Origin: Suillus spraguei | Taxonomy: Eukaryota; Basidiomycota; Agaricomycetes; Boletales; Suillaceae | Assembly (NCBI GenBank): GCA_016800925.1 | Contig: JABCPU010000008.1 | Coordinates: 372,001-436,000, forward strand | Length of the DNA: 64,000 nucleotides | Direction: 5' to 3' | Shown: positions 906-60,459 of the stretch, piece after piece | Position numbering within the stretch: the first letter of the stretch is position 1 | Layout: every line of letters starts with the position of its first letter | Position numbers and translations under genes: made by a program | Notes under the pieces: model-generated | Seen by the model: the letters and a program-made list of their open reading frames with translations, nothing else | Told to the model about the DNA's origin: nothing | The model's database searches: none

Positions 906-2834
906 ATGCACCCCATCCTGGGGCGTATTGCCATTTGCTTCGTGCTATTTCTTATTATCTTCCCTGCCTTGACTTGTCAGATCTACATCATATGGCCTTG
1001 GTATGGGCGCGAGCTGTCCGTAGAGCTCATAACTCTGCTCTTGCCATTCAAGTGAGCTTCATCAATCCAATATACTTTGAAATTTATGCTCCAATAGTGT
1101 CCTTGTTGTATCACTGCTATGGAACTACTACCTATGCATAGTTACTGATCCAGGAGAGGTTCCAGATGGTTGGGTACGCCCAAGGCTCACCCGCAGTCAT
1201 TCTGATTGATCACACTATCCCCCCAGAAACCAGACACGCAATCAGGCGAAGGGTACGAGGTTAAAAGACTGACGGGTTGCCCTCGATTCTGCCGTACCTG
1301 CGACAAGTTCAAGCCTCCAAGGTCTCATCATTGCAGGCAATGCAACAGGTAAGTAGGAGCTGTCAGTGAATTGCTGCGATGCTGACTGCTCAAAAGATGC
1401 GTGCTGAGAATGGGTAAGCACTTTTAGGTATCCTTCTCTTCACAGTCTGACTACTACAGACCATCATTGTCCTTGGACAAATAACTGCATCGGCCATTTC
1501 AATTATGGGCACTTTATTCGTTTTCTATTTTACGTGGACGTCACTTGCTCATATCACCTCGCTATGGTCTCATACAGAGTCATGGCTGCATCCAGGGCAC
1601 GGTATTATGTGAGTCGTGTCCCGAAGTATTGAACCTGCAACTGAACGCAAAGCCACTCAGGACGAGCCAACGGGTGCCGAACTTATCTTCATCATATTGA
1701 ACTACGTTTTCGTCGTCCCCGTGATCCTTGTAGTTGGAGCTTTCAGGTATTGCGTACCATTTCAAGCAGAATTACAGGTTGCTCACCGTGACACAGTATT
1801 TATCACTTTCATAGTCTGTTAGGCAATACCACGACTATCGAAGGCTGGGAGAAAGATAAAGCTGCAATGTTACGACGACATGGCAAAATTGAAGAGGTAA
1901 ACATTTCCTATGTAAGCTACAGCGAATCAACTGACTGTGTCGTCCACAGGTCAAGTTCCCATATGCAAGTATTTGATTCGTGTCGACAAACAAATTACTA
2001 ATGTATCGCAGAACCTTGGCGTGAGGCGTAATATTGCCTCAATTCTCGGAAACAATCCATTTTTGTGGTGTTGTCCAACTGTTCCTCCTGGAACTGGTCT
2101 AAGTACCAGCTTTCAGTTGCCGATGGTGAGTGGAATGGGCAGGCTGCAGCACAGAAGCGCCGAAGGAGAGTGGACGATTTGGAATCATGACTGCTACACC
2201 TGGTAGCTGTCATTTTCCTCTTACGTCCTCGTTCTGTCGTGTCAGTACGCTCATTGCAGCTGCGTCATCACGCTTGATATGGCGCCTCACTGATTAATCT
2301 GTTGATATAGGACATCATAACTGGCCTCCTCGAGACCCGACTTTGGCTAATCAGACACCCTTCAAGCTCCCCGATAGTCCATGGACATATGAGAATGGAA
2401 ACGTTAATCCCAATTTACGTCCAACAAATGGTCAACTACGTGGTGTCAATGGTAACCACTATAAATCCACGCAAGATCCTATCTCTGTTTTACCACCTTA
2501 CCATCCAGATTACACGGATCCTGGAGTTGATGCCCATCCTGGACGACCGTATTCTCCCGATAGTGTGTCGGATCATTCAGAAGAGGGATACTCCGAAGTT
2601 GTTAGGGTGCGTCGGGGCTCGGAGGGGTACGAGGTGCGCCCCGTAACTCGGGAGCAGTTGTTTCAAGAATATGTGCAGGACCAGATTAATGAGGCTGGCC
2701 GATACCAAGTGTATGAACCCGAACACACTCTAGAGAGTGATGAGGATCTCGAGGAGGATATCGATGAGTTATCTGGGGAGGCTGGAGATGCTAGCACAAT
2801 CTCGGACGATGAGGTACCTCTCGCATTACAGTGA
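906..2834 (+). CDS. PFA4: DHHC palmitoyltransferase, PFA4-like
   Basis: Integral membrane protein S-acyltransferase that moves palmitate to cysteines of substrate proteins (PFA4 works at the ER in yeast). The ATG at 906 begins a first membrane segment followed by PWYGRELS. Later exons give a second segment ending in [10 protein letters not shown], then the zinc/Cys-rich core [15 protein letters not shown] and the catalytic [15 protein letters not shown], then further membrane segments and the [10 protein letters not shown] block typical of PFA4. The tail from 2343 is acidic and Ser/Pro-rich. I read exons 906-1051, 1099-1173, 1227-1348, a 17-nt micro-exon 1397-1413, 1460-1608, 1661-1746 and 1797-1896, then later ones to the TGA at 2834. 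Near 2101 the frame only continues with a weak donor (GTACCA at 2103) or one extra base; see findings. Confidence 0.88.
1397..1413 (+). other. 17-nt internal micro-exon of the palmitoyltransferase
   Basis: Introns 1349-1396 (GTAAGT...AAAAG) and 1414-1459 (GTAAGC...CTACAG) leave a 17-base exon. It supplies exactly the residues CVLRM needed between SHHCRQCNR and DHHCPW. The flanking phases agree, so it is needed to keep the catalytic motif in frame. Confidence 0.8.
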
Positions 2835-2963
2835 TCGGTATTAGACTTCTGTAATCACTGGACTCTGGGAACGAACTGTGTATTGTATTACAAGCGCGAT
2901 TAATAGAGAGAATATAGCTAGATAAGGGCCGAAATCTGAAGTGGGGGTCGACAAGTACCACCA

Positions 2964-5309
2964 CTATATGATGGAAACCCTCTCAAAGTACACTTTCCAC
3001 ACGTGTCCACTTTTCTCACCAACTTCCAAAACGTTTGAACCAACCTGAAGATCCATATTCCACACGCCATCTTCGAGCTTTTCGTTCATAGCAGTACCGT
3101 TGAGGTTGATCAATATGCTCTCCTTCTGAGGCGTAGGCGCGTTCTGAGATTTCTTCTGTTCAGCTTTCTTTGCTAGTGCAGCCGCCTTAGCTTTCGCTTT
3201 CGGATTCTTGGGTGGACGGCCACGACCACGCTTTCTGGGACTGGGCTCCTCCTCCTCCTCTTCATCGTCTGGTTGTTCATCGTTCCCATCACCTTCCTCA
3301 TCTCCAGTTTCATCATCATCTCCGAAGAATCTGATCTCTGCAATAGAGATCGATTTCTCGCCCTGGCCAAGTCGTATCGCCCAGGATTTGACTCCATCAC
3401 GATGATCAAGCCAAAAGGGTCTGCCACGAGGCTTGGTTATTAAGAAAACGCCCTTGAGTGGTCGATGTCCAGCCAATACAGGTGGAGGTGATCTTGAAAC
3501 CGATTGAGATGTCTGAACCTGAGGCGCTGGCTGTGTTCGTATTGTGGAAGATGGTATTGCAGGTGTCGGAGGAGCCGGAGCCGGGTGGGTGTATTGGTGA
3601 TAGGTAGCATTAGGATAATACTGAGGCTTAGCTGCTGCTGCTGGCTGATACTGCGATGGCTGTGCCGAGACTTGTGGTGATGGCGCGGCTTTTGTTTGTG
3701 TTACTTGCACTACTGGTGTTGGTAAAGGAGTAGGGATCTGAGAAGGAGGAGCTGCAGCAACAAATGGTTGAGGTGTGGGGGCAGGTTTAGGTACAGGTGC
3801 AGCGATGGTTTTGAGCCTTGCACAGGTGTAGTCGTTGGAATAGGCACTCCAGCTCCTGGTGGTAGCTGATTGATCGAGGATTGAGCTGAACTCTTGGCAT
3901 TTCCGCCACTTGCAGGAAGGCGTAACGTCAGTGATCCTCCAGTAGCGCCCTCTTTTTCTTGTGGTTTGGTTGACGAAGAAGCGATGGTCGTAGAGGGTCC
4001 GGCAGTAGCCGCCGCCACCCCCGGAACTTTCAATTTGATCTTTGCTGGAGGCTTCGAGTACTGTGATAGCGCGTACGGTTCTGGCATGTCAGACATGAGT
4101 TGACGGAAGTAATCCTGTTGACGTATGAATGAGAATACTGCTCGGGGTATGCGATACTTACTCGAAGAATGATCGCATCCTCCCAGATCTGGCTGTGGTC
4201 CTGGTTGAACTCAAGAGCGTTAGAGAACACGAGCTCGACATCAGTTGCAAAATCCAGGGAGGTTTGATATTCCTTGCGCTTCAAGTGTTTCTGGTGATGT
4301 TGTGAACACATGCTGAAGAGTCAATGTGTATGACTTACAAAAATGGTTTCTATGCACATTGGACGTTTGATTTGTGTATAATACATTGGATAGTCCTTCT
4401 TCGACGGCATCTCCATAAAAACGTTGGAGAGTACACGATGTCTGCAACCATAATCAAAAAAAACAAGTTGTAGTCGAGAAGGAAGACGAACTCACGTCTC
4501 TTCGTCAGCCTTATCGACAAGCTTCTGTAATCTAGTCTTCAAGAGGCGAGTCAAGTTAGGCTGTTTGCTCTTCTTCTCGCTGTCTCCACCGTCAGCAGGC
4601 TTGTCCTCGTCGTCGTCTCCATCGCCATTCTTCTTGACTTTCTTTCCCGTCATCTTTGTATACTCCTTATTTACGAATTTCTGCCCCAGGGTGAATGAAT
4701 ATCAGTGTGAACATAAGACAAAGGACAATCTCACCAGCATGAATTTGGCGTCAAGCCAGATTGGACTGTTCTTCTGATTGTACTTTTTGGCGTTTGAAAA
4801 GCAGAGGTCGAAATCTTGTCTGATATCATCGAGAGAGTTGTATAAGCCACCATCTATTTTCTGCTTGATATCGTCCAAGCAAATTGGTTGTTGAATGAAG
4901 ACATAATAATCAGGATAATGGCGCTTTGAGGGCAAGCGCATGAATGCTGGAGAGCATATGAAACCTCTGTGTGATATACGGAAGAAATGTTAGCGAGATC
5001 AGAAAGGAAAATAGCTTCAGGCGGCTGTGATTGCGTCTGAGCTCAAGTTGGGTTTGTTACTCACTCTTTATTGACCACGTCCTTCAACATCTGCCACAAC
5101 TTTGTTCCCTGCTCCTTCAACCCAGCTACACCAGAATTACTACTTTCTGCAGTATCCATCTGAGTGTCTTCATTAGCCGTATTTCCTATGGCGGTTCCTG
5201 TAGCGGCTTGGCCAGATGATGCTCCAACTTGCTTTTGTCGCTTTGTTCGAGAGCCGTCCACGTCGTCATAATTCGACAAATGTCCAATCTCTCTCTTCAT
5301 CATTGTCAT
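2964..5309 (-). CDS. RSC4: Double-bromodomain chromatin-remodelling subunit, RSC4-like
   Basis: Probable acetyl-lysine reader of the RSC/SWI-SNF class remodeller. The N-terminus is MTMMKREIGHLSNYDD (ATG at 5309). Bromodomain 1 contains KRHYPDYYVFIQQPICLDDI and a CFSNAKKYNQ helix. Bromodomain 2 contains KKDYPMYYTQIKRPMCIETI and SNALEFNQDHSQIWEDA. A long Pro/Ala/Gln-rich linker follows, then an acidic stretch with an AT-hook-like KRGRGRPPKNPK, and a C-terminal beta-rich domain beginning near HRPLKGVF. Two bromodomains plus this C-terminus fit RSC4 of basidiomycetes; assignment to RSC rather than another remodeller is by family resemblance. Around 3812 the linker switches frame. This needs either an unusual 86-nt intron (GTGCAA...TCTCAG) or one missing A in a run of four. 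A CACGTG lies about 115 bp upstream of the start. Confidence 0.85.
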
Positions 5310-6523
5310 ACAGTCGTGGGCGTTAGTTCTGGCTAAGAAAAAACGGATACCGAAGGAAATAGCAACGAACTTCAGCTTGTATTAGGTCTCGGACGCTCAA
5401 CGAAGACGAAAATGGCTAGAGTCACGTGATTAGTGAAGGAGTGGTAACGGGGATCTACCAACGGATAAACTTGAAGATGTTCAATCACTACACTATCTAG
5501 CTGCAAAATGTACCTTTGTTGCTAATTCTTGTAACTCACAACTCGCGCATCTGACGCTTCGCGGCATGTCCGTGGTTGTTCAGCCCACCTCAAGAAGCCC
5601 GCAAAGAATCTCTCGATCTCTCCTTCCCATTGTCGTCTATGCCTGTTCTCGAGTAGTCTCGAAGTAACATTGCTTCCCCTGTCTGGCAAAGTTGCTTGAG
5701 AAACAATTTCGTGAGATTGCTATATGTAATCCACTCACGTGTTCTCTGTCACATCAACAAAGAAACCATCGATAACGAGTTGACAAGAGCATAGTCGCTC
5801 GGCAACATATTTGTTTGTAACTCATGCCTCCACAAACCACTCATCGTTATTATCACAATCCGTAATAACATGGTGAGTCTTCTGATGGATGTATGGTCGA
5901 TACCTTGCGGCCTAGTCCGTCAAACGCTTTTTATGAATCTCAAACGTGAAGAGCAGCGATGATCCATTTTGAAAGATTCAAATCCAGTCGAGAAGGGCTA
6001 GAACGATAGTCATGAGGAATTGTGTACTACATCAACAACTATTAGGACGTTATATGCTATGTCATAAGGACGGGGCGCATACATGCTACAAGCCAATCAT
6101 CCACGAATTCGTAATATAGTCCATACAAAGTCATAATTTCCCTCCCTACCAGTCAGGGTGGCCAACACTTGGCCAAGTCAAAAAGGACTTGTGCTACAAG
6201 GACACGCGCACACAAGATTACCCTAGACGTATCCCCGTCTGAGTATGGTTGTAGCCCATCCCAGTGGGCCAGTCTAATCCCTGTTCAGCCTATCCGCTTG
6301 AAGAAATCAAAGAGATCGCATGAGTTCACAGGGAACGTGTAGTGTCAAACTATAACGGCATCGGGCCATATGTATTCTTATCGAGTCTGCATCACCTACT
6401 GGCAACTTAGTGACTAGGCCACCGTATACGAAGGCACCCACTGGATCACTCCAAAGAGGTCCAAGGGCAACGGGAACTATGTATACCCGAAAAAATTTGC
6501 GAGAGCTGTAGGAATGCTTCACC
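5310..6523. other. Gene-free interval after the RSC4-like start
   Basis: I see no convincing exon chain on either strand. The 5' part is the RSC4-like promoter, with CACGTG at 5423-5428. An ATG followed directly by GTGAGT occurs near 5870 but I could not find a matching downstream exon. The rest holds only short unrelated open frames. Confidence 0.5.
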
Positions 6524-7140
6524 AAACATTATACATAATTTCCTGCCTTAAGTGCCTCGCCATAGTATTCGCGCTGGAACCTCATGACACATTGGTTGTT
6601 TTGATATGATTATACGCACGACTCACTGGGGTCACGTTCTAGATCTTCGCAATCAACCAACATGACGCGCTCATACACGGTCTTGAACCTGAAGAAGATC
6701 CAGCCCATGTGAGAATATAACAAGCTACTCGTGGCCACATATTCAAAGATGCATCAATTAATCTCCTGCTCGTAAATTAGCCTTCAGTCGTGAACAATTG
6801 ACTTACGAGTCGTACTGAAGATCATCGATCATCCGTGAAGCGCTGTGGAATTTAGACCCATGTCCCAAAAAAGTCGGCAAGTGACCTACATGATGTAGTC
6901 CATGTCAGAGGCACCTGAATTCGTTGAGATGATCAAAACGTCGTGTACAACATTCATATAGACACACCACCACCACCACGCCCATTTATTGAGATCATCA
7001 ATTTCAACGGAGCTCTCATCTTGATTGAGCTTGGAATGCACTGCACCCGAGAGCAGCCGAAATGACACGTACATACATATTTGCTTTAAACGCGCGACGT
7101 GACCAGAGTCTATGATGGTCAATTGTAATGCTTGGCAGAA
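6524..7140 (-). CDS. Unrecognised spliced ORF, 5' end unresolved
   Basis: A chain of short exons can be read on the minus strand: LTIIDSGHVARLKQI, then SVEIDDLNKWAWWWW and VHDVLIISTN, then ASRMIDDLQYDS, then FKTVYERVMLVDCEDLERD, and a last piece FQREYYGEALKAGNYV ending at a stop near 6524-6540. Intervening sequences have GTAAGT/GTAGGT donors and CAG acceptors in compatible phase, except for the final join, which is uncertain. I could not identify the family or find a start codon. It may be a real small gene or a decayed one. It lies downstream of CutC on the same strand. Confidence 0.3.
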
Positions 7141-7467
7141 TCGTAAGTTTGTTTCTACAAAGCCAGAGGCAGAGTGATCTTGTCAAACATCAGCAAGTTG
7201 CCAGTAGAAGAATGCCACGAGCAAGGTCTCAGGTAGACACACTTGACCGCCGCAATGTGAGCAAAAAAAAGAATACAGCATTACTCCTGCTGTGACCAAG
7301 ATATCTTGTCAGAGAACGTCTTGGGAGTGAGCTCAAGGTTCAAGAATCTAAGAAAAGTTTCCATCTAAGTCTGGCAGGTCGACTCCTTTTTGACTTCGTA
7401 TACCGAAAAAACTCCATTGATTGGATGAAGACCGTTAATTTGTTCTGATCCCCTACACAAGGAAAAG

Positions 7468-8591
7468 TCATGCCTCTCGAAGGGAATCGATGGCATCTTT
7501 GACTGCACGGACTGCCCTTGCGCTTGTCCGCCAAATTCCCCATTCACCGGCTCCGCCAATGCCCATGCCCATTCCATCTCGACGCCAAATAGAGGCTCCA
7601 TCGGTCCAATATCCACCGCTCATATGCACTTCGCGCAGCCCATGGGGCAGCAGCGCCTTGCATAAAGCACCGATGGTAGATGAATTGATGCCAGATCCCG
7701 GAAGAATTTCGATGCGTGGATCCTGACAATCTGCAAGGTCTAATAGATCCTTCAAAACATCGAGAGAATTAGCCGATGTGGCGGTCGTGCCCTGACCGCT
7801 TGAAAGAAGTGCCCAACGTTGACTTGGAGCCAGCTACTTTGTATAATTGTAACGCTTACCTCGTCAGGATGCGAGTTAGTCCATCAATTTCGGACAACTG
7901 GCGCCATGCTACAGTAAACAATCAGTACAAGCTTAACAACTAAAACTATATTTTGCCTTGCCCTTCCTCGTGTCACGAGTCATGTCAAACGCTCGATGAA
8001 AACAGACTACGTCAATGAGGCCGTGAACAAAAATGAATGATAAACAGTTGAGATTACCTTGTAGAGGCAAAGCTTCTGAGACAAGACTAGACTGAATGTT
8101 GGCGTTCTAGGGCTTCAGGGGCACAATAGGAAGGTCTACCTCTGAGTGCGGGTCACGTCCACATCTCCTTCAGAAGTGAGAATGCCAAACACGACGCCTT
8201 GGACGCCATTCTCTCTAAAGCAACGTATATCCTCCATCATCACGTCGAATTCAGCCTGAGTGTATACAAAGTCACCAGTCCGAGGTCTGATCATAACCTA
8301 GTGGGGCAAACTCGTCAGTAGCAAGAAAGAATCCAGATAACGGTAATTTAAGCCACCATGATGGGGACTGTAGGTACTGCCTTTCGAATAGCTTTCAACA
8401 GTCCAAAGCTGGGAGTAGTTCCTCCGCCAAGACCTAGATTGCTACAAAGTTCAAGACGATCTGCTCCTGCTTCAACGGCTCTGAAAGTGACTTGTAGTAA
8501 CTGGTTGCTCTTGTAATAAAAATGTAAGGATTCACACTCACGCCAAAGCAGACTCGATGGAGTCAACGCAAACTTCAAGAATTAAGGGCAT
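7468..8591 (-). CDS. CUTC: CutC-family copper homeostasis protein
   Basis: TIM-barrel protein of the CutC family, linked to copper handling in bacteria and animals; the biochemical role in fungi is not settled. The ATG at 8591 gives MPLILEVCVDSIESALA. This is followed after an intron by AVEAGADRLELCSNLGLGGG, the family signature, then TPSFGLLKAIRK, PIMVMIRPRTGDFVYT, GVQGVVFGILT, a CFHRAFD block, LTRILTSGQG and a C-terminus with EILPGSGINSSTI and REVHMSGG. All are in the order and spacing expected of the family and length is normal. At least four introns are present. The start codon is only about 67 bp from the proposed start of the divergent phosphatase gene. Confidence 0.9.
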
Positions 8592-8658
8592 GAACAGGAA
8601 AGCAATATGACTGACTGGTAAGTAGCAGTTATATGTACCCGAAAAGGAACTTTGTCCA

Positions 8659-11621
8659 ATGTCAGCTGAGTGCTTTTTCTCAGGCTGTTTACGCGTACGG
8701 TCCGACCACAACGTACTATAACTGCATCTAGACAATCACATAGAAGAAAGACAGTTTAGTGCGACGACATCGAGTTCTAATACTAACAGATTGATGGAGT
8801 CAAAGCCAGACATGAGGCTGGCTCAAAAGCAAAATACGGCGCATATGACGACGTACTTGCTGAGCCAGAACGCGAATTACTCCTGCCTACAGAATCAAAC
8901 TCACCCACAACTAGTATTTTCAACACGCCACGATACAGCCTTGTGCACCTTTTATATGCCTTTGTTGGAGGTGCCGCTTTGTGCATCGGTGCACGCTTCC
9001 TGCTGGACGTGTCAGGAATTGCTGGACCCCCTCCACTGGGAGACGACGTGAGGGTACAAGCACCACCGTACGTAGGTTCGACGGAAGTGCACCATTTCCC
9101 GCCTGTAGCCCCAACAAATGCTTTCCCTGACTCTTTCCAACAAGGTACGCTCCGTTTAAGTTAGTTGGACAAAAACTAACTTAACCTGCAGCGTTGGGTA
9201 CCCAGGCGGTACTCCTACTGGCGCAGAGCCCGGCCTCATTGCAACTGCGCCCTCCCTCCCTTTGCAGACTGGTGCAGCCCAACTTGTCGCACCTCCAAAG
9301 ATTTACAAGCACATCCACTCTACGCATGATGACGACGCGGAAGAAGAAGAGGAAGAATCTCTCAAACATTATCAATCCGACCGTCCTTTCAACCTTTTCC
9401 GAAGTTGGGGCAACCTTTCTCCGTGGTACAGTGTCCCACGTGGAGCGTTCGGCGTCAATGACACCGCAGAACCCCCTGCTGGATGTGTTGTTACTGGCCT
9501 CCATTTACTTCACCGTCATGGTGCCCGTTATCCGACCGCATGGTGTGCGTGTTTTCTCTCCATCGTAACACTGATAATAATTCACTACTATCAACAGCGA
9601 ATTTCGGTGGTCCTGCCAAGTTCGCTACCCGTCTGCACGAGAGCGCATCGCAATGGGAGGCAACTGGGCAACTAGCATTCTTGAACGAATGGTAAGGTGT
9701 CCTGCTCCATTTTTTGATGTGTATCTCATGAAGGCGTGTGTAGGACTTACAAGCTAGGCGAGGAAGGTATGAATTTTACAAGTACAGCAACATGCGATGT
9801 TCACTTTTCAATCAGTGCTCACTCCCTTTGGCCGACAACAACTATGTTTGTCCATTTTCTCCTCCCCTGAAAAGCTCTCATCGTGCACATATAGACGACC
9901 TTGGCGTATCTATGCGTCTCAAGTACGGTTTCCTACTCAAGGTTTATCTGCTTTTCTCGTGTCACTAAATCCGCATGATAACATCGATGAAATGCTAGAA
10001 CTTCACGGAGACGAATACAATTCCTGTATTCCGGACAGAGTCTCAGTAAGTGGTCTGGTTTATTTTATCTGGTTATGTACCATAACACCATAAACCCGCA
10101 GGAACCGCATGCTTGCTTCGGCACTCAACTTTGCAATTGGATTCTTTGGCTACCCTTTTGAAGGGCAGTACCAACAGTTGATTACAATCGAAGCTGGCGG
10201 AGTGAGTTCTTCGTTTTCTCGTATCTTGTTTTACTTGTTTCGTTACCCTACGCTATTTAACAATTCGAATGTCGTCTGTCCTCTTCCTGTACCTTTTCTT
10301 ATATGCCCCTTTCCTTGCGCACAACACCTTCCTCAAAAGACACAGTGCTCACTCTGATATAATTTGCCAGTTTAACAACACCTTCGCCCCCTACGATACC
10401 TGCCCGAATGCCAATACCGCTGGTAAATCGGATCGCTCGCTGCCCTATGTCAAAGAATGGGTTTCCCACTTCCTGGTGGAAGCCCGGGAACGACTATCAA
10501 GGGCAATGATAGGAAAGGACGGTCTGCAGGGTGAGTTCAATTGGACCGGAGAAGAAGTGTACGAAATGATGCAGACGTGTGCCTATGAGGTACGCCCACT
10601 TGTGGTGGAACGTTCTGTCCGTTGTGGCTGACTGTATCATCGATAGACCGTTGCTCTTGGTTACTCCAAATTCTGTGATCTCTTCACGGAAGAAGAGTGG
10701 GAAGGATTCAATTATGCGTATGTCCCGTTTCTTCCCTTTTTGTCCCTGTAGTACCATATACATACTGACCGGTTACCCGTTATTATAGACTCGATTTGAC
10801 ATTCTGGTCAGCACACGTGCTTGCATCTGTAGGTTTTTTGCTGACCATGTTCTTTCTCCGATTGCTCGGACTGTGACCTACCCGAAACTCGTAGGTACGA
10901 CTCTGCTTTTGGTTCACCTGTTGCTCGCGTCCAGGGTGTCGGATACCTTCAAGAGCTCGTCGCGCGACTTACCCATACTCCGATCGCGACCCACAACAGT
11001 AGCACTAACGCCACACTTCACACGCCTGAGACTTTCCCGCTAGATCATGCTCTCTATGTAGATGCTACGCATGAAGTTGTTGTCCTCAATAGTACGTGGT
11101 CTTACGACATATTGCTCGCCCATATGATAGCTGATCGGTTACCGGCACGCAGTTATCACAGCGCTCAACCTGAGCACGCTCGCAGCAAGCGGTCCTCTCC
11201 CTGCAGACCATATCCCTCAAGACCGTTCATTCCGTTCCGCAGATCTTGCTCCCTTCGCAACTAACATGCAGTTCCAGCGTAAGCAGTTTGTGATCTGTTC
11301 TTTTTTTGCAGTTTTACTGAGATGTATTTTATTTTTTCATACGATGTTCCTACGCTCGATACCTACTTTTCAGTCCTCTCCTGCGCATCCACCCCGGAAC
11401 CCCAAATCCGGATCATCATTAACGATGGCGTCGTTCCTCTCCATGGAATTCGTACCTGCCCGTATGATGACAAGCACGGAATGTGCCCACTTCCCGCGTT
11501 CGTTGAAGCTCAGCAGGAGACGATCCAGAAGACAGACTGGGTATGGGGATGTCATGGAGACTGGGAAGTACCTCAAGGCAGTGCATGGAATTCAACAACA
11601 GGGGACGCGCCTCAGGCATAG
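8659..11621 (+). CDS. Membrane-anchored histidine acid phosphatase (phytase-like)
   Basis: Two-step acid phosphatase of branch 2 of the histidine phosphatase superfamily. The catalytic motif RHGARYPT follows GCVVTGLHLLH. The C-terminal proton-donor motif is DATHE, with Glu where classic fungal phytases have Asp. Other blocks are TPFGRQQL, FRTESQNRMLASALNFAIGF, GFFGYPFEGQYQQ, NTFAPYDTCPN and PQIRIIINDGVVPL. Near the N-terminus a hydrophobic stretch (LVHLLYAFVGGAALCIGARF) suggests a type II membrane anchor rather than a cleaved signal peptide. An acidic run of Glu follows. The main 5' exon begins after a TACTAACAG acceptor at 8789. The ATG at 8659 joins it in phase over a 95-nt intron but is a tentative choice. 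About ten introns interrupt the gene. Confidence 0.88.
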
Positions 11622-36932: not shown

Positions 36933-39300
36933 TTAAAGGATATCTATACCATCTTCCCATTGGTTTTGTTTGCTGGCACCAGCTCTGGGCTTCGAAAATG
37001 CCCCGTTGAAGTCCAGCCGAAGTAATAGCCTTTCAACATGCCGGCGGACTTCTCCCTCTCCCTCAAAACCCTTGTTCCCCTTTCCTCGGATGGACGTGCG
37101 TTGTAATGTTGTTGCATTTGCCACGCTAGCGTTCATCAAGATAGACTTTGATGCATCACCAGTAGCCGTGAAGGGCTGCTGAGAAGTTGAGAGCGACAGC
37201 TGCTCATAGAACAAATCAAGCAGTTTATGAAGGCTCTGTTATATGAGACAGTCAGTGTTAACGGCTAATGCTAAAAATACAAAATAGCACCTCATTGATA
37301 TCTGACACCACCTGAAACCGTTCCTGTACCATAGCACCCACCTTATCATCCCCACCAGGTGCTAAACTCCCCTCAAACAACAACGCAGGCAGGACGTCTC
37401 CGCCCCATCTCTCGACCTGCGCGACAAATCGTTCGCACACCTCGAAAATCGGCCGAAGGATCGCAGTAAGAGCGGGATTAGACAGTAAGCACCCCGTCAG
37501 CAATCGTTCGAGGTACGTCGTATGGATATTTCGCAGCGTTGTGAAATCAAGGTAAGTTGAGGGGTCTGTACTTGCTTGACTGGCAATATTCTGTGAACAG
37601 GGGTGCTTGCCCATGCTTTCTGCACGTCCACGACTTGGGTTCCCCAAGAGATCCTTCAGTCTTCTGAACTCAACATCTACGACGTCGACCATGACATAAC
37701 CAAGAAGTGTGTCAAAAAACCATCCCATATCCCTCACGACGCCCCACCCGCAGCGTAACAGTTCTCTACGCGCTTCGAGGTCTTCGGCAGTACCACCTTC
37801 ACCAAGACCTGTCCATCGCCGTCGTGCACGTTGTGCGTTGGAGAGTGAGGTCCAGCAAGTGTGAATTTGAGTGTGGGTCTTGCGCAACGAAGAAAGGTAG
37901 TTGAAAAGAGCTGCATATATCTGGAGATCCGAAGGGTGCAGAAATAGATCCAGAGGCCAGGTGACATTGTACGATAGTATGAGATTTGTGCCTAAAAGGA
38001 GATCATCAAAGGATGTGACTTCGGGTGAGTTACTAGCGACGGATGAAGATAGTGCTTTGGAATTTGCCAACGAGGGCAAGAGAGGCCTGAGGGGCCCGGA
38101 AGGGAGCTCAAAATGGAGATGTAAGAGTGACGGATCATGTTGGGCCGTTGTGCCAAGTGACGCTCGGAGGAGCGCTAGATTTAAATCTTGTTCTCGAATC
38201 ATTGACGCCGCTCCTGATCGTGTCGTGAGCCGTGATATCTTCAAGCGCTCGATCTCACGGATGAGCGCCAAGCTGAATTCCCCATTGCGCAGAAGGAAAT
38301 AGCTTGCCCTACCGGTCAATTGTTAGCCTACCAGATTCAAATAAAATAAAATAAAACAAAAGCAAAAAGCAAAAAGCAAAAAGCAAAAAGCAAAAAGCAA
38401 AAAAGGAGATCTCGGAAGGATCACGTACAGTGATATAACGGCGTCTTCGACGTCCTTCCGCGTCAGAACGTTGAGCCATAGCCATTCGCTGACATTTGTT
38501 CTGATCTGTGAGATCACGAGGTCAAATTTGTATTGATCCTCGGGCAACACGGTCTCCAGCAGGTTGGCGTATTCAAGCGCCTGCTCGCGCGGCAGTTGAT
38601 TCTGCCACCTCTTGGCTTTTATGGTCGCAATGGCCCGACCTACATAAACGATGGATTCTTTCGTTTGAGGAGAGACGCAAGAGGGTATAGTACCATCCAA
38701 AAGCGTGAAATCTTCCGATGCTAAAGGATCAGAAGAAGCAAGGGACCCATGAACCAGGAAAGCAGACAGCTGGCTCCGCCAGACACGTTGGACGGCGACA
38801 GAAAGGCGTGATATGATATCGGCAATCCGATAGACACCAGTCTTTGAACGGGCGAGCAACATGTCAATTAGGGGACCGGGCTGCCAGTGCTTCTGAGCTT
38901 GTAGCTGATTCATCAAGGTTTCTAGCGCTGTGAGTGGAGAGTCCCATTCTGCAAAAGTCGCTCGTACAGCTGAAAGCGGAACGAAAGATCCGTTTGCAAC
39001 TAGATCAGGATCGCGTTTCAAGACCTTGGCTTCTGTATCTACCACCAGTTTTTCGTACTCGTCCTTTAGGATCTGGTTTAATGTCGCACAGAGCGCGCAG
39101 ACATAACGCGACTTGGACCTGGAGAGAGTTGCACACGCCTTCTTTATGTTGCGGTATCTGGAAGCTATGTGTCCAAGGGCCTCAAGACATTGCTCTTCGC
39201 CTGGATGTAGTAATGGTCTGAAAGCAGGATGTAAATTGTGATCTGTTGGGAACAATGACGAAGAGTGGCCTGCGAGGACTAGCAATACTTCTGCAATCAT
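36933..39300 (-). CDS. GCP4: Gamma-tubulin complex component 4 (Spc97/Spc98 family)
   Basis: Subunit of the gamma-tubulin ring complex that nucleates microtubules at the spindle pole body. The ATG at 39300 gives MIAEVLLVLAGHSSSLFPTD, the usual GCP4-type start, then HPGEEQCLEALGHIASRYRN. Helical bundles follow, including LLARSKTGVYRIADIISRLS, AFLVHGSLASSDPL and SYFLLRNGEFSLALIREIER. The C-terminal gamma-tubulin-binding part has FELPSGPLRPLLP, ILSYNVTWPLDLFLHPSDL, YAALFNYLSSLRKTH and DFTTLRNIHTTYLERLLTGC. Only two introns, one with an AAAAAGC microsatellite. The last exon ends at 36933. Length near 740 residues fits GCP4 rather than the longer GCP5/6. Confidence 0.9.
38361..38405. repeat. Heptanucleotide microsatellite (AAAAAGC)n in a GCP4 intron
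   Basis: Five perfect tandem copies of AAAAAGC followed by an A-run on the plus strand, inside the GCP4 intron (about 38320-38430). The intron's GTACGT donor and GGTAG acceptor are intact. On the coding strand the repeat gives a pyrimidine-rich tract upstream of the acceptor. Confidence 0.9.
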
Positions 39301-48886: not shown

Positions 48887-49372
48887 AATGTCTTTGAAAA
48901 CCAAGGTCGCACAACCTGTGTACCAAGCGCGAGCTATTTATCTCATCTATACCAGTGCACAGATAACAGGCACTGAATTCTATATATGAATCAAGCTGTA
49001 GAGTCCAAGAAATGATTTGATAACCATAAAAGCACTCCCACCTACATCTAAGACTACAGCAAGGCTGCATCCGCGTTGATATAGCGCGGAGCGGCAGACT
49101 AGATCCGCCACTCATATATAAATGATGGGTATAGCAATCGGAGCTGCACATAGACTTCAAACTACCAGTTTGATGAGTTCTGGATTTTGTAGCCGTGCGA
49201 ACTGTAGAAGGATGCAATTCTGTTCCTGCCAAATATGATCAACCACATACTTACATAACCCGTAAACACGAGTAGTGCACGACAATGTTGCAGCGAGGGG
49301 CGGTAGCTTACTTGTACTGAGCATTGTCATTTTTTTGCATTATGATTTGCATTACAACCTCAGATCTATGGT
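48887..49372. other. Intergenic interval
   Basis: DUF6593 promoter and spacer up to the inverted-terminus element. I see no exon chain or RNA gene. Confidence 0.45.
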
Positions 49373-49506
49373 GGACGATAGGTTACGGTTCGATTTGCCG
49401 ATTTACCGCGACGTATTTTGAAGTCCGATCAATGTTTGTTCTAGTCTTGAACTATTTGTTGGTAGACCTATAATTTTGTGTCACAAAAAGTCACAAGTGC
49501 AGTTAC
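49373..49506 (+). repeat. Left inverted terminus
   Basis: Begins near GGTGGACGATAGGTTACGG and is inverted relative to 52215-52343. The internal block GACGTATTTTGAAGTCCGAT aligns with ATATTTTGAAGTCCGACC on the opposite strand at the right end. Confidence 0.65.
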
Positions 49507-50052
49507 TTACTACTATCGGTAATGGTCGGACTCGCGCCAATCCCCGACCCCGGAGCTCCGTGTCTTGAGCTGCATAATGATGAATTCCGGCACGGCTTCA
49601 AAGGTTCGTGCATAAGACATAAGTATCTTAGACGCGGGTCACACGGATACAATCTCGCTGTCAGTTCAGTTACGTTGGCAAAGGGAAGCAGTGTGAGCAC
49701 GTTATTAACCAATACACTTGTCCCACAGACAAAGAATTATGAAGCTCAGAGCCTGCAGGCCTTGCGATTTGGCCGAGAACCTATCAATGTACGAGCCCCT
49801 TGAAGCTGCTCAGGAATACACGAAGAAACAACCAACGGAGGCTGAGTTTGAAGTTTGCGAGTCAGTTCATAGATATCCAAGGCAGTGTAACGCCAAGGAA
49901 GCTTCACCAGCTACGCGATCTACTGCAATCAAGGTAGTGAGAGGACTCAGAGGAGGGGGTTTACGCAGAGCACAAGATAATTAGTGTTTCAAACGTGTCC
50001 GAAGGCACGACTCGCCATGGAGTAAATATCAATGTTGCATCAACAGTTTGCA

Positions 50053-50800
50053 CAGGGGCTAAGGTCAGTGAAGGACCTAAGATCCATCCATGAGTGGATG
50101 TTCTGATAAAAAAATGCTGTCATTAGCAGGTTTTGAACCTACACAGGAAAGAGAAACAGATTTTGATTCTGTTGTGGTAACCATCAGGCTAAGACTAGTT
50201 GCAATGAACTGCCAAAGAAACCATCACGGGTGAATATTAAGGTGTGCTCCGATAGAAAAAACCTTGTCGTCGGCAGGTTTTGAACCTGCACAGTCCAAGA
50301 GAAACAGATTTTGATTCTGTCGTGGCAACCACCAGGCTAACACCAGCTACGGTGAACTTTCAAAGAACCCGTCCACGAGTGAACATCAATGTGTGTTCTG
50401 ATAGAAAAAACCTTGTCATCGGCAGGTTTTGAACCCGCACAGTTCAGGATAAACAGATTTTGATTCTGTTGTGGCAACCGCTTAGCTAAGACCAGTTACG
50501 ATGAACATCTAAAGAAGCCAGCCATGAGTGAATGTCAAGGTGTGTTTCAATAGAAAAAACCTTGTCATCAGCAGGTTTTGAACCTGCACAGTCCAACAGA
50601 AACAGATTTTGATTCTGTTGTGGCAACCACCTGACTAAGACCAGTTGCAGTGAACTTCTGAAGAAACCGTCCATGAGTGAATGTCAAAGTGCGTTCTGAT
50701 AGAAAAAAATCGTAGTTCAGCAGGTTTCGAACGTAGTCCAAGGGAAACAGATTTCGATTCTGTTGTGGTAACCACACTAGCCAGGCTAAAGTCTTTGATT
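50053..50800 (-). repeat. Tandem array of five 149-bp units with tRNA-Ser-like Pol III modules
   Basis: Units start at plus positions 50105, 50251, 50400, 50549 and 50698 (periods 146, 149, 149, 149), with a partial unit before the first. On the minus strand each unit holds, in order, a box A-like stretch (best copy TAGCTAAGCGG), a 5-bp anticodon stem ACAGA/TCTGT with a 7-base loop, a 14-15-nt variable region, a T-arm of about 5 bp (GCAGG/CCTGC in the best copies) with loop TTCAAAA (box B GGTTCAAAACC) and a run of six or more T. Layout and 3' sequence (CCTGCTAATGACA in unit 1) resemble type II tRNA-Ser. The D-arm and acceptor stem pair poorly, so intact tRNAs are unlikely. Confidence 0.8.
50710..50793 (-). 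pseudogene. tRNA-Ser(CGA)-like unit (least CpG-decayed copy)
   Basis: The rightmost unit has anticodon loop ATCGAAA (anticodon CGA, Ser) and T-loop TTCGAAA. The other four units have ATCAAAA and TTCAAAA at the same places. The variable region TTCCCTTGGACTACG fits a type II tRNA. The acceptor stem and the outer T-stem pairs are broken, so I call it a tRNA-derived pseudogene. It ends in a T7 run. Confidence 0.5.
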
Positions 50801-52214
50801 CCCACTTGACGACTCATCCTGAGTTGAAAACCTATGGGGCCCCTGATTGACACTGCCCGAAAAGATGACATGGACAGTAAAGTTCGAGTCTGAACGTCTA
50901 TGAGACAATAGAATTGCCCCGACAAGGGACGAAGACTAGTATAATTCTAATTCACCATCATTAGCAGCAAGTTCAATGTGATTGACATTACCACTATACC
51001 ACTAAGTATACATGGAGTTTCTGGAAACACAGAAGGAAATGAGCAGATACTAGAAAACGAGGATAGTGAAACACTGTCACCACCTTGAAAGCCAGACATG
51101 GAGAATTGGAGACGGGAGTCTCATCTTCCCACAAAACGGTGGCCACGCAGCAATGCAATTCATCTCAAACATAACATCGAGACCTCACGCGACCTCGAAC
51201 TCGACATCGGTAGTGAGAGCACGGCAATAAATCACGGAGGCCATGGGGATTTCAGCGAAACGCGAACTTGGGCCCAAATGGCTGAGCGAACGAGCAATCG
51301 AAGAAGACGAGAGAAGAATACCATTCAAGGACAAGAGCAACAGACGCAGGAAGATAATTGATTTGAATGATGTCCCAGTGGTAAAACACGATATAACCCA
51401 CTCCCTTATGGTAGCGGGAATAAATCTACATGACACATTAGCACAGGGTGTTCGGAAACCAATGCAAGCACTGACCTTACTAGGAAGGTTCTGAGAAGTG
51501 GAAGCCTTGGAAGTAGAGCACGGTGGCCTGGCTTTCCATAGAGCAGCAGTCTTCGTACGAATTTCTGCTCTCTTCTGCACACAACGGGGGCAACAAGGTC
51601 AGTACAGATACGGACAGAGTTTGCAAGCTGTCGTGATAATATTGATCGTCGTAATCAGACCATACATGATTGTCATGCTCAAAGCCATACGGGATGCGGC
51701 AGAAGGAGAAAAGACAGTGGGAATATACTTCAGGCTAGATAGACCGGTCGAAATGTCTGTTAAGAATTATACCAACTGTCGTAGTAGGAATGCACGCAGG
51801 ACCAGATGTCAACTCCACAGTGACCCCATCATCATTGAAAACAAACCGCAGCACAATGCAGTCATGCAGAAAAGACGATAGCACGGAGAAATCTCAACTC
51901 ATCATTAACATAAATAACAGTAGGAATATCATGAAGGGTCCAATGACTTGATAACAACTAAAGGCATAGTCGACAATTAAGATCAACATACGCAGTGAGA
52001 AATACAACACCAACTACTGTCATAGCGGGAATGAAGCACTGCGCAGCCTGAGTGAGTCGCATATCCTGGAGGGTGAGGGCTGCTCAGTGAGCTCAGGGAA
52101 GAAACCCGAAGGATAGATTCATTCGCCACTAATGTTGTGATATTAATAGTAATGCTTGCCAGCAGCTGGGGATCTACCTCAGTGAGCACGGCGCGCAGAG
52201 TCGCCGCAGACTGG

Positions 52215-52343
52215 CGTAGAACTGATTTGTGATTCATGTGACAGGACCATAGCGTGAATAAGTGCATACCAATAAAGTTCGGAACAAACATTGGTCGGAC
52301 TTCAAAATATATCGGCAAATCGAACCGTAACCATACTATCTAG
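52215..52343 (-). repeat. Right inverted terminus
   Basis: Reverse complement aligns with 49373-49506 over its whole length, with small gaps. Confidence 0.65.
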
Positions 52344-53588: not shown

Positions 53589-56022
53589 CTAATGCCCGCG
53601 AGGAACGGCTGCGCCAAAAACGCGGAGAACCGACTGAAGTTTTGCCAACATCTCATCCCACTCCGCATCAGGGTTGGACAGGGCAGTGATAGCCCCTCCA
53701 GCGCCAATTACCCAGTGCTCTGGCTCGTGAACGCCAGGGTAGAAATCGGGGTTATTGAATTTCGTCCACGAATGAGCATCGCATTCGTATCGGTCATCGT
53801 ATTTGAAGCAACTTCGGATGGTAACAGACCAGTCACCACCACCTCCAGCGCACCAGTAACCAAAGACACCGGAATAAACATTGCGTTCCTCGTCTTCCAG
53901 TGTTCGGAGGATCTCAACACTGCGCTTTTTCGGGGCTCCAGTCATGCTACCTATGAAGTATATTAATTAATAACAGTTGAATCAAGAACAACTCCACGAG
54001 ACATACCCGGGGGCAAGCTGCGTCTGAGAAGCTCCCACCCCAGTGCGCCGTTAGCATAGTGGCTGGCAGTTTCATCGACACTGTCTGCCGATTGGCCTTC
54101 AATGACGCTAACAAGCTGCCACACTGTCTTGCACTCCTCTACAGTGCAGAACTGTTTGACTTCCACATTCTCTCCAACAACTCCATGCATATCATGCCGA
54201 ATAAGATCGACAATCATGAGGTTTTCGGCAACCTCTTTCCGGCTACCTCTGAGCGCTTGCTCAGCAACAGCACGGGTGATTTGAGGGCCCTTCCGTATGG
54301 TACCCTTGACGGGACATAGTTTATACGTAGTCCCAGGTGGACGAGTGTAAGAAAGAAACCGCTCTGGTGATGAGGCCAGTAGGGTGGTTGGATGCAACCG
54401 AAGGTACGCAGCGTGAGGGGCGGGGTTGAGCTCGCGAAGGTGTTTATAACGCTGCCAGGATGGGGAGTGCGTTGATGAAGCCTTGGGTGCCAGCGGGTCG
54501 TTCAGAGTAATACGAGTATTAGCTGTAAGACACAGTTCATATGATTCTCCGGCGAAGAGATGCTCCTTCGCAATATTAATGCGGGATCTATAGAGGTCCC
54601 GATCTGGTAAAATAACAGTAGACGTATTTGGTCGCGCCTTGGTTGAATAAGGCGTAGTATTATATGAAGAATATGTTGAATAATTACGGGCAGCAGAGTG
54701 AAGCTGTCCGGCCATTTCCATCAGCCATTCGTTGTCGTCTTCCATGATAGATTGGAGATAAATGTGTCCAGAAGTTGAGTCGAGAATTATGCTGCGCTCT
54801 ACGAACACGAGGTTGACATCGGGGTGTCGAGTTTGGTTACATACCCCCGGGCCGTCGGCTGATACTTTGAGGGAGTCAGTGCCGAGTTCGTAGCTCAGGT
54901 AGCCAATGAGGCCACCCCAGAATGGTATTTCTGATGAACCACCAGTGACCTTCCGCTCGTTCATAAAAGAAGTAAGCCAAGACCACACGTCTCGAGATTC
55001 CAGATCTATTTGATCGCACGACTCCCCATTTGCCAAATGAATATAACTATCTCCAATAGTGTATGTGATTCGGAGGGACGTTGAAGTCAAACAACCGATG
55101 ATAGTGAACTGGCCTGGATGCGCAGCAGATTCCAGCATAACGAAGGGAGATGAATCGTCGTCGACACCCAAGACCTCGCATATGTCGGGAGCAGACAGGC
55201 CTGGGATACTCAACTTTATGGTAGAAACGGATGGTGATATGTTGATATGAGGGGTGCCTGGTAATAAGCGAACGTATGGCCACGGAACGCCAAATATTTC
55301 ATCAGCTTTCTGATCCCATGGGCGTGTGACTCGCCCATGAGAAGAACTCCAAGTCCGTGCTAAACGCCAGAAGTTTAACATGACTTCGATACCTCCACCC
55401 CGCGTGAGAACTGATTCAGGATGATACTGAACAGCCCAGAAGGGTCGAGTGCAATGTCTAAGGGCCATTACTACCCTCCCATTCACCTCGTCATGTGTCG
55501 ATGCGAGTTCTTCGATGTTCTTCGCACCACTCAGCTCAACGTGGAGGGAGTGGTAACGAACGGCATCCACAGTACCGACGCCTTTAAATATATCTGTGCC
55601 AGTGTGCTCGACAGCAGATACATGGCCGTGCTTGACGACAGAGAGCCTGCGTAGATTAGCCCCGTATTCAAGAGCTAAACTCTGAAGACCCAAGCAAACG
55701 CCAAAAATTGGCAAAAGATGTGCATCATCAATCTTCCATAGGTCTTTGACGAGACCAATGTCCTCTGGAATATTAGGAGATCCTGGGCCTGGACCGACGA
55801 CGATGCCAGAGAAGTAGGGCAGATATGATAATAGATCTTTAAGTTTCATTTCATCATTCTTGATTATATGGACGTAGCAGGTTGGGATGGCCCGGCGACA
55901 CAACGCTGCTAAGCTATTGAAAATGGTTGAGTTGCATTTCTCGGAAAGAATATGAGGACTAACTTGTAGGTGAATGAGTCATATGAGTCGACCAGCAGAA
56001 TCCTTGGGGGTTCAGGACTCAT
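53589..56022 (-). CDS. ABZ1: Aminodeoxychorismate synthase (fused PabA-PabB)
   Basis: Makes 4-amino-4-deoxychorismate from chorismate and glutamine, the first step to p-aminobenzoate and folate. The ATG at 56022 gives MSPEPPRILLVDSYDSFTYN, then LAALCRRAIPTCYVH after a 48-nt intron. The glutaminase half has VVGPGPGSPNIPEDIG, FGVCLGLQSLALEYG (nucleophile Cys) and AVQYHPESVLTRGG (catalytic His). The chorismate-binding half has WGGLIGYLSYELG, SYELCLTANTRI, SSPERFLSY, KLCPVKGTIRKG, ENLMIVDLIRHD and MTGAPKKRSVEIL, ending GVFGYWCAGGGGDWSVTIRS. A single 58-nt intron splits the last exon. Length near 790 residues fits the fused fungal enzyme. No frame break. Confidence 0.95.
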
Positions 56023-57036: not shown

Positions 57037-60000
57037 ATGGTTCACGAAGGTGTGTGCAACACAGATCCTTACCAGACTGAGTTGACCATTGATTTAGTTC
57101 AAATACATATGCGTTCCACTACTGGAGAAGTCACAGCTATCTGCAGGGACCGTAGCATCTGTCTTGCCTCTGCTGTCCAATCTTGAAAGTGCATTACTCG
57201 ATGCGGGTGGAACTGGCTTTGCCCTATCTCAGTCCTTGGTTTCATACATATTTTTCCCGCTATCTACAATCCTCCGCCGGAATGAGTCGTCTGCCATCCC
57301 GAACCAAATTCTGGAGAAGATATTTAGTGTTCTTGCCATTCTATGTGAAACATGGTGGTGGTACTGCGACATACAGATATGGGATCAGATATTCAAGCTA
57401 TCCAGCTCCATCATCGGGGGTATCGAAGGCAAGGGCAAGGGCAAAGTCAGGGATGATGAAACCAAGGAAGCAGCCGCACGATGTCTGTGGGCCATTCTTC
57501 GGGAACGTCGCGCAGAGGAAGCACCACAAAACTCTCCCGAGGAGCTCTTACATGCCCGTGTTTCTCAGCTGCAAGCACATTCTCAGAGCTTGCAATTCAT
57601 GCCTATTCTCGGGCAGACTGTCAATACACTCCTCCTCACCGCGAAGTCTCCCCACCTTCCATTACAGCGCATTTCGTTGAAGATTCTACGTGAACTCATC
57701 AGCGTATATGCTTCAGAGCAATTTTTACCTTCCATCTTACCCGGTGTCGTGAGCAGCATGACTAGAATTGCTCTTGGGATGTCAAGCAAGAAGGGATGGG
57801 TCAATGGAGACATCGTCGCCCTGAGCCTTGGAACTTTGGAACCTGTAATCGTGAAGTCGTTAGGAGATGATATATGCATCCGAGAGGGTGTCGTTCGGAG
57901 TGTCGTGGACCTTGAAGACTTCATCAACCTCACAGACGCTCCTGCGGTGGACCCAAAACCACCTGAGTTACCTCCTTACCTGACTCCACGATCTTCGAGT
58001 TGGTTGCATGCGTCGGCATCTCAACTACACATTGCGATAAATTCTTTGACACCTCTCGTGAATCATCCAACTACCCTTGCTTTGGTTGCATTGTCATCTT
58101 TCTCGAGGACCATCCTTGCCTCCACATATTTAACTCTCCCCCAATCTCGGCCTCTCCTATTGTCTTGGTTGTTGTCACTATCAAACTGTTCTTTCCCGGA
58201 TGTTTCGCAAGCCGCTCATCACGCCCTATCGAGCTGCTAGCAGCCGCCTCGCATGCGAGACTACCGTTACTCCAAGCACTTCTAGAAATATCGAAAGAGA
58301 ACCTTAGTTCTTTGCCTCGATCCATCGTTTCTCAGGATGACACGAAGGTGGAACATATCGCAGGCCAGATAGAGGCTATCTGCCAGTTGGCTATGTCTAG
58401 TAGCACGTCCTCTACAGGCCTTGGTCTGACGTCAATCTCTTTGGGAATCGACACGCTATTAGGGCCAACCGGCGGAATCGAGAAGTGGGGTTTTACTCTG
58501 CTTTCTGTCTTGGAGTTCACAAGTCCACAAATGAGTGTCAGCCAGGGTTCCGTCGCTCAACTCTTTCTAGAGGACAATGCAGACAACCTGGATACAGTTA
58601 ATTTCCCTGAGGTTATGTTAAAAAATGTTCTCGCAAGGTCCGCACGCGATGCTCTGGCTCGCATGCTACGCGCTTTGGGGAGAAGCAGCGGCGAAAATAG
58701 CATCTACGCTGTTGAATGGTTCGTAAGTACAGGACGTTATTCACGAACCAACAATGCTATTGCGGCATTATGGTGTGCTGCTCGTCTTCTTGAGGGGATC
58801 AGCGGCTTTAGTCTGGACGAAGGTGGCATGGCTACTTCGAATGGGCCCCGCAGCAGGAAACTGGAGCGGTTTGCAAGAGGCTTAGCCCGTGACCTAGCTG
58901 AGTTGTGGGACGAAGAGCCAGATTTCGATACCCAAACTGATACTGCCCGCACGGATCGTCAGACGGATGACTCGTTACTGAAGACGGAGTTTACAAAGGG
59001 GTTCAAAACTATCCGTGCTACCCTGCAGATTGCAGAGCCAAGAGCTACACTGCCTACTCTATCCGAGGATCAACCCATGCTGCACAAGATATTTCGCTTG
59101 CAGTTACTTTCGATCAGCGCGGGAATTTTGCAGGCTCGCTATGCCTCCGTTCTCATCCAGGTCCTATATCCAGTTTTACATTCGATCGTATCACCTATAC
59201 CCCATCTTTCCCTGACCGGGCTTGCGACACTGCATTTTATGTCAGCTGTCATGCCATATGCTTCTCCCGCCAATCTCTTACTGTCGAACTTTGACTACGC
59301 ATTGGACTCTGTTTCCCGCCGCCTTAGCCGCAGATGGCTTGATGTTGATGCAACGAAAGTGATGGTTGTCCTTGTTCGCCTCGTAGGGGCTGATGTGGTT
59401 CAGAAGGCCGGTGATGTTGTTGAAGAATGTTTTGACCGTTTGGATGAGTATCATGGGTATGAAGTCATTGTTCAAGGCCTGGTGGAAGTATTAGGAGAAG
59501 TGATTAAGGTTATCGAAGCTGATGAGCCTCCCACCCAAAAGGAATGTCAGGACGAAATGCAGTCGCCGATGATAACCAGTTCATTGGAGCCACTCTTCGA
59601 ATGGCTTTCTCATCGGAAGGATCCCCCACCTCATGAAGACGCCACTGACTACGGTCCTGCCCCCCATAAGGCATGGGGTGCCACCAAGACAGAGGAAGAA
59701 TCTGTTGAAAATCAGTCAGATGGTCTTACGACACATCCCAAAGTCGCCGAGGACGCCGAGCCTCCGCCCACGCCGGGACAAGCCTTGACCAAGCAGATGG
59801 TTTCACGATCTATCTATTTTCTCACACACGCTTCACCCGTCATTCGCGCTCGGATCCTGACCTTGCTAAGCTCAGCCACCCCGGTTCTCCCTGAGTCGGC
59901 CTTGTTGCCATCTATCCATCTCGCTTGGCCATTCATCTTGAATCGTCTCAATGACCCAGAGCCATTTGTGGTCAGCGCGGCTGCTGGTCTTGTGGAATCA

Positions 60001-60459
60001 CTCGTGACCCACGTTGGCAGTTTCATGGGTAGGCGAGTGTGGGACGATATCTGGCCCCGTTTTAGCAACATTTTGAAAAAGCTAGATGCATCCGACAATC
60101 AGAATGCCCTTGCACGCCGCGGTTATGGAGCGGTTGGAACGGAATCGGCATATACTCACTCTCATCGCTTATACCGCTCCATTTTGCGAACGATGACAGC
60201 TGCCGTAGCTGGTGTCCATATGCAAGATGCATCCGGCTGGCAGGTCATCCTCGCATTTAGGCGCTTCTTGCATAAACAGGCACATGAAGAACTGCAGGCC
60301 TGTGCAAGAGAGTTGTATATTGCTCTTGGGAAGGGCAATAAAGATGCCGTATGGCTAGCGCTTTGGGCAACGTGTGGGCATTTGACCGGGGAAGTCGCTC
60401 ACTTAAGGGAATACAGGTGGGATATACAAGACAATGTACGCGTAATCCTCGACAAGTAA
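57037..60459 (+). CDS. TTI1: TTI1, subunit of the TTT complex (one apparent -1 frameshift)
   Basis: HEAT-repeat scaffold that with TEL2 and TTI2 matures PIK-related kinases (TOR, ATM, ATR). The main frame opens after a TTTAG acceptor at 57097 with FKYICVPLLEKSQLSAGT, then VSYIFFPLSTILRRN, ETWWWYCDIQIWDQIFKLSS, CLWAILRERR and ILPGVVSSMTRIALGMSSKK. The last exon carries HEAT-like helices to AYTHSHRLYRSILRTMTAAV, WQVILAFRRFLHK, ARELYIALGKGNKDAVWLAL and the TAA at 60457. At 58234 the first frame (SQAAHHALSS) meets a stop while the second (LLAAASHARLPLLQALLE) continues one base out of register; an extra C in AGCTG restores it and no intron fits. The first exon (ATG at 57037) is tentative. Confidence 0.87.

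Follow-up and report, generated by a model that had tools for sequence, protein, structure and literature searches.

The stretch of DNA analyzed here, a window of 64,000 nucleotides from Suillus spraguei, raises the question of where a tandem array of tRNA-Ser-like units comes from, whether these units still act as genes or Pol III cassettes, and by what means they have multiplied within an assembly of 86.2 Mb and 1,256 contigs. An earlier note had read the array, five units at a near-constant 149-bp period, as an amplified tRNA-derived Pol III cassette carried inside a mobile segment. Both the period and the tandem amplification are recovered: Tandem Repeats Finder reports 50099-50775 with a period of 149, 4.6 copies, 81% matches, and a score of 813, and cutting at the T-runs delimits five head-to-tail units on the minus strand at about 50108-50849. 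The start, previously placed at 50053, lies instead near 50099-50108. The units are as follows.

50110 to 50255, minus strand: array unit 1, the last when read along the minus strand, made up of a tRNA-Ser-like part and a spacer, nhmmer 135.1 bits
50256 to 50404, minus strand: array unit 2, nhmmer 154.7 bits; Rfam tRNA model 18.8 bits, below the cut-off of 29
50406 to 50553, minus strand: array unit 3, with an exact box A private to the window copy, nhmmer 147.4 bits
50555 to 50702, minus strand: array unit 4, nhmmer 156.6 bits
50703 to 50849, minus strand: array unit 5, the first when read along the minus strand, with a diverged spacer, anticodon loop ATCGAAA, and a 4-base loss in the T arm, nhmmer 114.0 bits

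The anticodon stem ACAGA/TCTGT and a minus-strand run of at least six T had been claimed for every unit, and both are present in all five (runs of 7, 6, 6, 6, and 7 T for units 1 to 5). A T arm in each unit is correct for four of them but not for unit 5, where four bases of the 5' strand are gone from the window copy and present in the majority unit 5. Similarly, the one exact box A does exist in unit 3, yet it is not a common feature, its adenine being G in the majority unit 3 (21 copies). The anticodon loop reads ATCAAAA (anticodon CAA) in units 1 to 4 and ATCGAAA (CGA, a Ser anticodon) in unit 5, and since unit 5 keeps the latter, the CAA of the other units may stem from CpG decay. A recoding tRNA with the Leu anticodon CAA was considered and rejected, because the acceptor, D, and variable stems are gone and unit 5 has a Ser anticodon.

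When placed against 20 tRNA genes fetched from the same genome, the five window units match only tRNA-Ser genes (E up to 1), with the AGA isoacceptors best. Single units score up to 56.8 bits against the tRNA-Ser(AGA) genes, whereas the maximum over 1,000 dinucleotide-shuffled versions of the units is 28.3 bits. The consensus of 41 units from a related transposon family, described below as family B, scores 64.0 bits (77% over 79 nt) and 62.5 bits (76% over 82 nt) against two tRNA-Ser(AGA) genes, compared with 25.4 bits for the best other Ser gene and 21.1 bits for the best non-Ser gene among those fetched. The alignment between unit and tRNA-Ser(AGA) is collinear and spans nearly the entire gene. 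It could be argued that the resemblance to tRNA is due to chance, as the window's best Rfam score remains below the cut-off and ARAGORN calls no tRNA there, but a collinear match over nearly all of the gene, far above 1,000 shuffles, already refutes this reading, to which we assign a negligible probability. The alignments thus bear out the suspected tRNA-Ser ancestry of the array units, the closest of the fetched genes being the tRNA-Ser(AGA) genes of this genome.

The units are tRNA relics and not tRNA genes, having lost the acceptor, D, and variable stems. A covariance-model search, suggested in the earlier note, returns no unit at the Rfam tRNA threshold: the best score in the window is 18.8 bits against the 29 required, and seven other loci show no tRNA match up to E 10. 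ARAGORN likewise reports 0 tRNA in the window. The extent of decay was assessed in 41 of 53 family B unit matches, leaving out the 12 with less than 75% of columns. In this sample, paired cells number 179/194 in the anticodon stem and 174/191 in the T stem, 130/270 in the acceptor stem, 31/121 in the D stem, and 40/104 in the variable arm, so the type II variable arm read into a 14-15-nt region is not kept. Box A is intact in 2/41 units and box B (GGTTCRANNCC) in 15/41, or 25/41 under a looser pattern, with T replacing the C of GGTTC in 10 units beyond those 15; runs of five T occur in 27/41. With no unit reaching the Rfam cut-off, a working Pol III cassette is not supported, and conservation of boxes A and B across other genomic copies, by which the cassette was to be judged, is not observed. 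Pairing in the anticodon and T stems of the 41 units equals the shuffled expectation, with double-sided change in one cell per stem, and selection on RNA structure was accordingly rejected. A sub-threshold Rfam match to Vault RNA (16.3 of 34 bits) was taken as the common box A/box B layout.

The second half of the earlier reading, carriage inside a mobile segment, holds well. The array lies within an element with terminal inverted repeats (TIRs), here called family A, which itself contains part of a second family, B. The features of this element are the following.

49367 to 52335, no strand assigned: family A element, a non-autonomous, IS3EU-like DNA transposon, TIR to TIR, about 2.97 kb; homology to other loci from about 49363 to 52333
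49367 to 49441, plus strand: left TIR, beginning TATGGTGGACGATAGGTTACGG; its inner core is found at 183 genome sites
50007 to 51795, no strand assigned: core common to loci L020 and L026 in other flanks, by homology; up to 51540 homologous to family B
51437 to 51540, minus strand: right end (TIR) of an embedded, left-truncated B element; the 32-bp B terminus is found, at 1 mismatch, up to position 51540
52282 to 52335, minus strand: right TIR; its core ends at 52331

The 183 sites of the A TIR core were counted at up to 3 mismatches, with a reversed control of 0. The A-type sample comprises 20 loci chosen as the best matches to window unit 2, and in these an exact 6-bp target duplication is found in 6 of the 14 A copies with both ends readable (13 of the 20 loci and the window); 5 of 6 bases match in two more copies, L021 and L025. 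We place the right end of the window element at position 52335 (..CCATA); some 10 bp of the outer TIR are absent there, and this copy, its right end cut, shows no 6-bp target duplication. As none of its 12 ORFs of at least 58 amino acids has a Pfam match, the window element is non-autonomous. Loci L020 and L026 are near-identical over 6.3 kb and carry the same core in other flanks; in L020 the core has on either side, at 1602-4506 and 6852-9809, a direct repeat made up of some 2.3 kb and 0.7 kb (80% and 73%). The higher conservation of the core (50007-51795) relative to its flanks was dropped as evidence, because L020 and L026 lack those flanks and several copies are truncated, which makes it partly an alignment effect.

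To the right of the transposon, an anthranilate synthase gene whose product fuses GATase and chorismate-binding parts (Pfam) lies at 53963-55903 on the minus strand, about 1.6 kb from the transposon end, and a TTI1 (TELO2-interacting protein 1) gene lies at 57164-60459 on the plus strand. Elsewhere in the window, an 84-bp unit is repeated three times in tandem at 139-388 (80% matches), and a seven-base AAAAGCA repeat of 6.6 copies at 100% lies at 38358-38403, in a gamma-tubulin complex gene region.

The array itself appears, from sequence comparison, to originate from the older family B. The B terminus TATGGAAAGCCAG occurs at 383 genome sites, some of them within A elements. Five loci chosen from the first 100 of these sites, away from listed A sites, and fetched by the B terminus alone, contain the array without exception, at 4 to 9 unit matches per locus (partials counted). 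L060 holds a complete B element (5527-8617) that is flanked on either side by the duplication TGCCTC, has 104-bp TIRs at 91%, and gives three unit matches; at L059 the target duplication of the B element matches in 5 of 6 bases. Window positions 51440-51544 align inverted to the left TIR of the complete L060 element. With a B right end at 51540 and B homology stopping on the left at about 49971-50007, the window A element contains a left-truncated B.

Unit number and unit divergence give this relationship an order in time. Five units are present in all 20 fetched A-type cores, whereas B copies hold 3 to 11 matches each (partials counted), which argues that unit number became fixed on uptake of the array by A. 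Among the 40 best copies, same-position units are 94-98% alike and other units about 79-90%, indicating that the array predates the spread of A. L025 and L014 contain an additional array of greater age that belongs to family B and resembles the window array at about 78%. In L025 (4231-7066, adjoining 7071) and in L014 (near 4405-4444), A elements are found at or inside the same B-element end, and it is conceivable that A insertions at this end reflect a target preference.

Both families end in TATGG..CCATA, within the published IS3EU pattern TAYGG..CCRTA. Fungal IS3EU transposons are described as having 6-bp duplications, TIRs over 30 bp, and those ends (PMC12730594), and IS3EU families more generally as having TA..TA ends and usually 6-bp duplications (PMC10045372). 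In the parts of these accounts drawn on here, the A and B elements find their likeness in the 6-bp duplications, TIRs above 30 bp, and matching ends, and differ from the elements described in carrying no transposase, alpha-kinase, or TET/JBP gene (PMC12730594, PMC10045372). Their interior is filled instead by a tRNA-derived tandem array. Judged by their termini alone, A and B would be IS3EU-type DNA transposons.

The rva_4 integrase-core family, which we take to be connected to IS3EU, is matched at 8 genomic sites, most of the matches being interrupted. One of them, an interrupted gene at L060 3148-4760 on the minus strand, adjoins the complete B element. At this locus, the one examined, the rva_4 pieces lie outside the B element and have no TATGG TIR pair of their own. 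The rva_4 genome search, with that one locus examined, gave no autonomous partner bearing A or B TIRs.

The scale of the amplification is seen from a search for other copies of the unit, as had been proposed: the anticodon arm plus seven bases gives 1,504 genome matches at up to 3 mismatches in 24, a count of matches, with a reversed control of 0. Divergence is unevenly distributed along the unit. In A copies, at A/T sites outside CpG-like contexts, the anticodon and T arms diverge by 0.011, the spacer by 0.040, and the remainder by 0.047 (one-sided p 1.4e-5 over columns), and CpG-like sites show no clear difference between arms and rest (p 0.06); in B units, A/T sites give 0.042 and 0.045 for the arms against 0.099 and 0.139 (p 0.0034) and the other two site classes p 0.079 and 0.065, all of these p values being optimistic because the copies are related and the columns are not independent of that relatedness. 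At G/C sites of A copies, the anticodon and T arms give 0.029 and 0.016 against 0.062 and 0.059. At A/T sites, then, divergence in the two arms is 2-4 times lower than in the rest of the unit; covariation is not seen, and a residual role for the arms is possible.

What such a role might be can be considered from several sides. If the arrays formed TFIIIC/Pol III platforms, with box B drawing in TFIIIC and the T-runs terminating short transcripts, they could give the transposon a boundary or an anti-silencing promoter. Box B lies in the T arm, one of the two least diverged parts of the unit, and runs of five T in 27/41 B units and of 6-7 T in the window units would suit such a platform; however, box A survives in 2/41 and box B in 15/41 units, 10 others having T in place of the C of GGTTC, the anticodon arm is equally conserved yet part of neither box, and covariation does not exceed shuffles, which leaves this a decidedly improbable reading. 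The near-palindromic arms (ACAGA..TCTGT and GCAGG..CCTGC) might alternatively offer repeated sites to which the transposase or a host protein would bind, forming an internal transposition enhancer. Such sites would agree with the lower divergence of both arms, with an array in every fetched B locus (5/5), and with pairing changes that show no bias to RNA pairing, but tRNA descent already explains the motifs, and the number of units varies among B copies from about 3 to 11 matches; we see only a slender chance that the arms work in this way. It is likewise quite doubtful that the captured tRNA-Ser became a mobile multi-unit platform whose anticodon and T arms are selected in more than 1,000 units, as DNA sites or RNA hairpins, for transposition or escape from silencing.

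A different origin of the unit is also to be weighed, namely, that it began as a tRNA-Ser-derived SINE inserted into a transposon and then amplified, and not as a captured tRNA gene. Unit 1 matches a tRNA-Ser gene weakly over 10 bases past its 3' end, no source came to light for the spacer, and many tRNA-derived retroelements are described in rust fungi in the part of the literature consulted (PMC10886601). Against this, the homology spans the tRNA with no tail, and the hallmarks of SINEs (solitary retroposed copies, a tail, target duplications flanking units) are absent from the loci read, where units occur in arrays within TIR elements; a SINE origin is unlikely. Helenus, or a TRIM with a Pol III promoter, was rejected as the carrier, as the ends of the element are inverted and not direct repeats.

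We consider it probable that an IS3EU-type element captured a tRNA-Ser gene, that the gene was amplified head to tail, and that the array then spread as a passenger. One gene would have been captured, likely once, by a non-autonomous element of family B and multiplied there by unequal exchange or slippage; the units would then have decayed, losing the acceptor, D, and variable stems. B would have spread the array passively, with transposase supplied in trans and with no Pol III role for the units. The second TIR family, A, would then have taken up a left-truncated B with five units and carried it to new sites. Homology to tRNA-Ser(AGA), the place of the units in TIR elements, the 6-bp duplications, the contrast in unit number, and the stem loss are the observations underlying this passenger history. 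Counting against it are the failure of the rva_4 search to yield an autonomous partner with A or B TIRs and the window copy without a target duplication, and the slower change of the anticodon and T arms at matched A/T sites is not predicted by passive decay alone.

Parallels to parts of this passenger history are known from other systems. Helenus elements of rust fungi and animals are described, in the portion of the source used here, as short LTR retrotransposons with tRNA-like sequences in their LTRs, including tRNA-Ser-AGA types (PMC10886601), and they share with the Suillus arrays the multiplication of a tRNA-derived sequence by a mobile element to hundreds of basidiomycete copies. As described there, however, Helenus is a retroelement in which each LTR holds a single tRNA-like sequence and boxes A and B are conserved, whereas the Suillus case is a DNA transposon with 3-11 tandem units and a decayed box A (PMC10886601). 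The Tetris foldback transposon of Drosophila virilis is likewise a DNA transposon with tandem repeats that multiply satellite-like, but its repeats have no tRNA origin stated in the part of the account consulted (PMC4079207), in contrast to those of Suillus. Plant tRNA gene clusters, e.g., Arabidopsis tRNA-Cys, also consist of tandem units with one tRNA sequence each, although those, as far as the excerpt used describes them, are tRNA genes at fixed places (PMC10701932), and the Suillus units are decayed relics that move with transposons. In the literature consulted, tRNA-derived repeats in fungi are tied to retroelements (PMC10886601), and a literature search, mostly at the level of listings, found no tRNA array in a DNA transposon.

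In conclusion, a tRNA-Ser relic now numbers about 1,500 units in the genome of one ectomycorrhizal mushroom, multiplied there by a lineage of DNA transposons. This offers a route by which tRNA-like sequences may inflate in fungal genomes without retrotransposition, and is a caution for annotators of tRNAs and satellites. If the slow change of the arms is due to selection, these elements would be a case, open to testing, of a transposon that has retained a tRNA fold as one of its parts.
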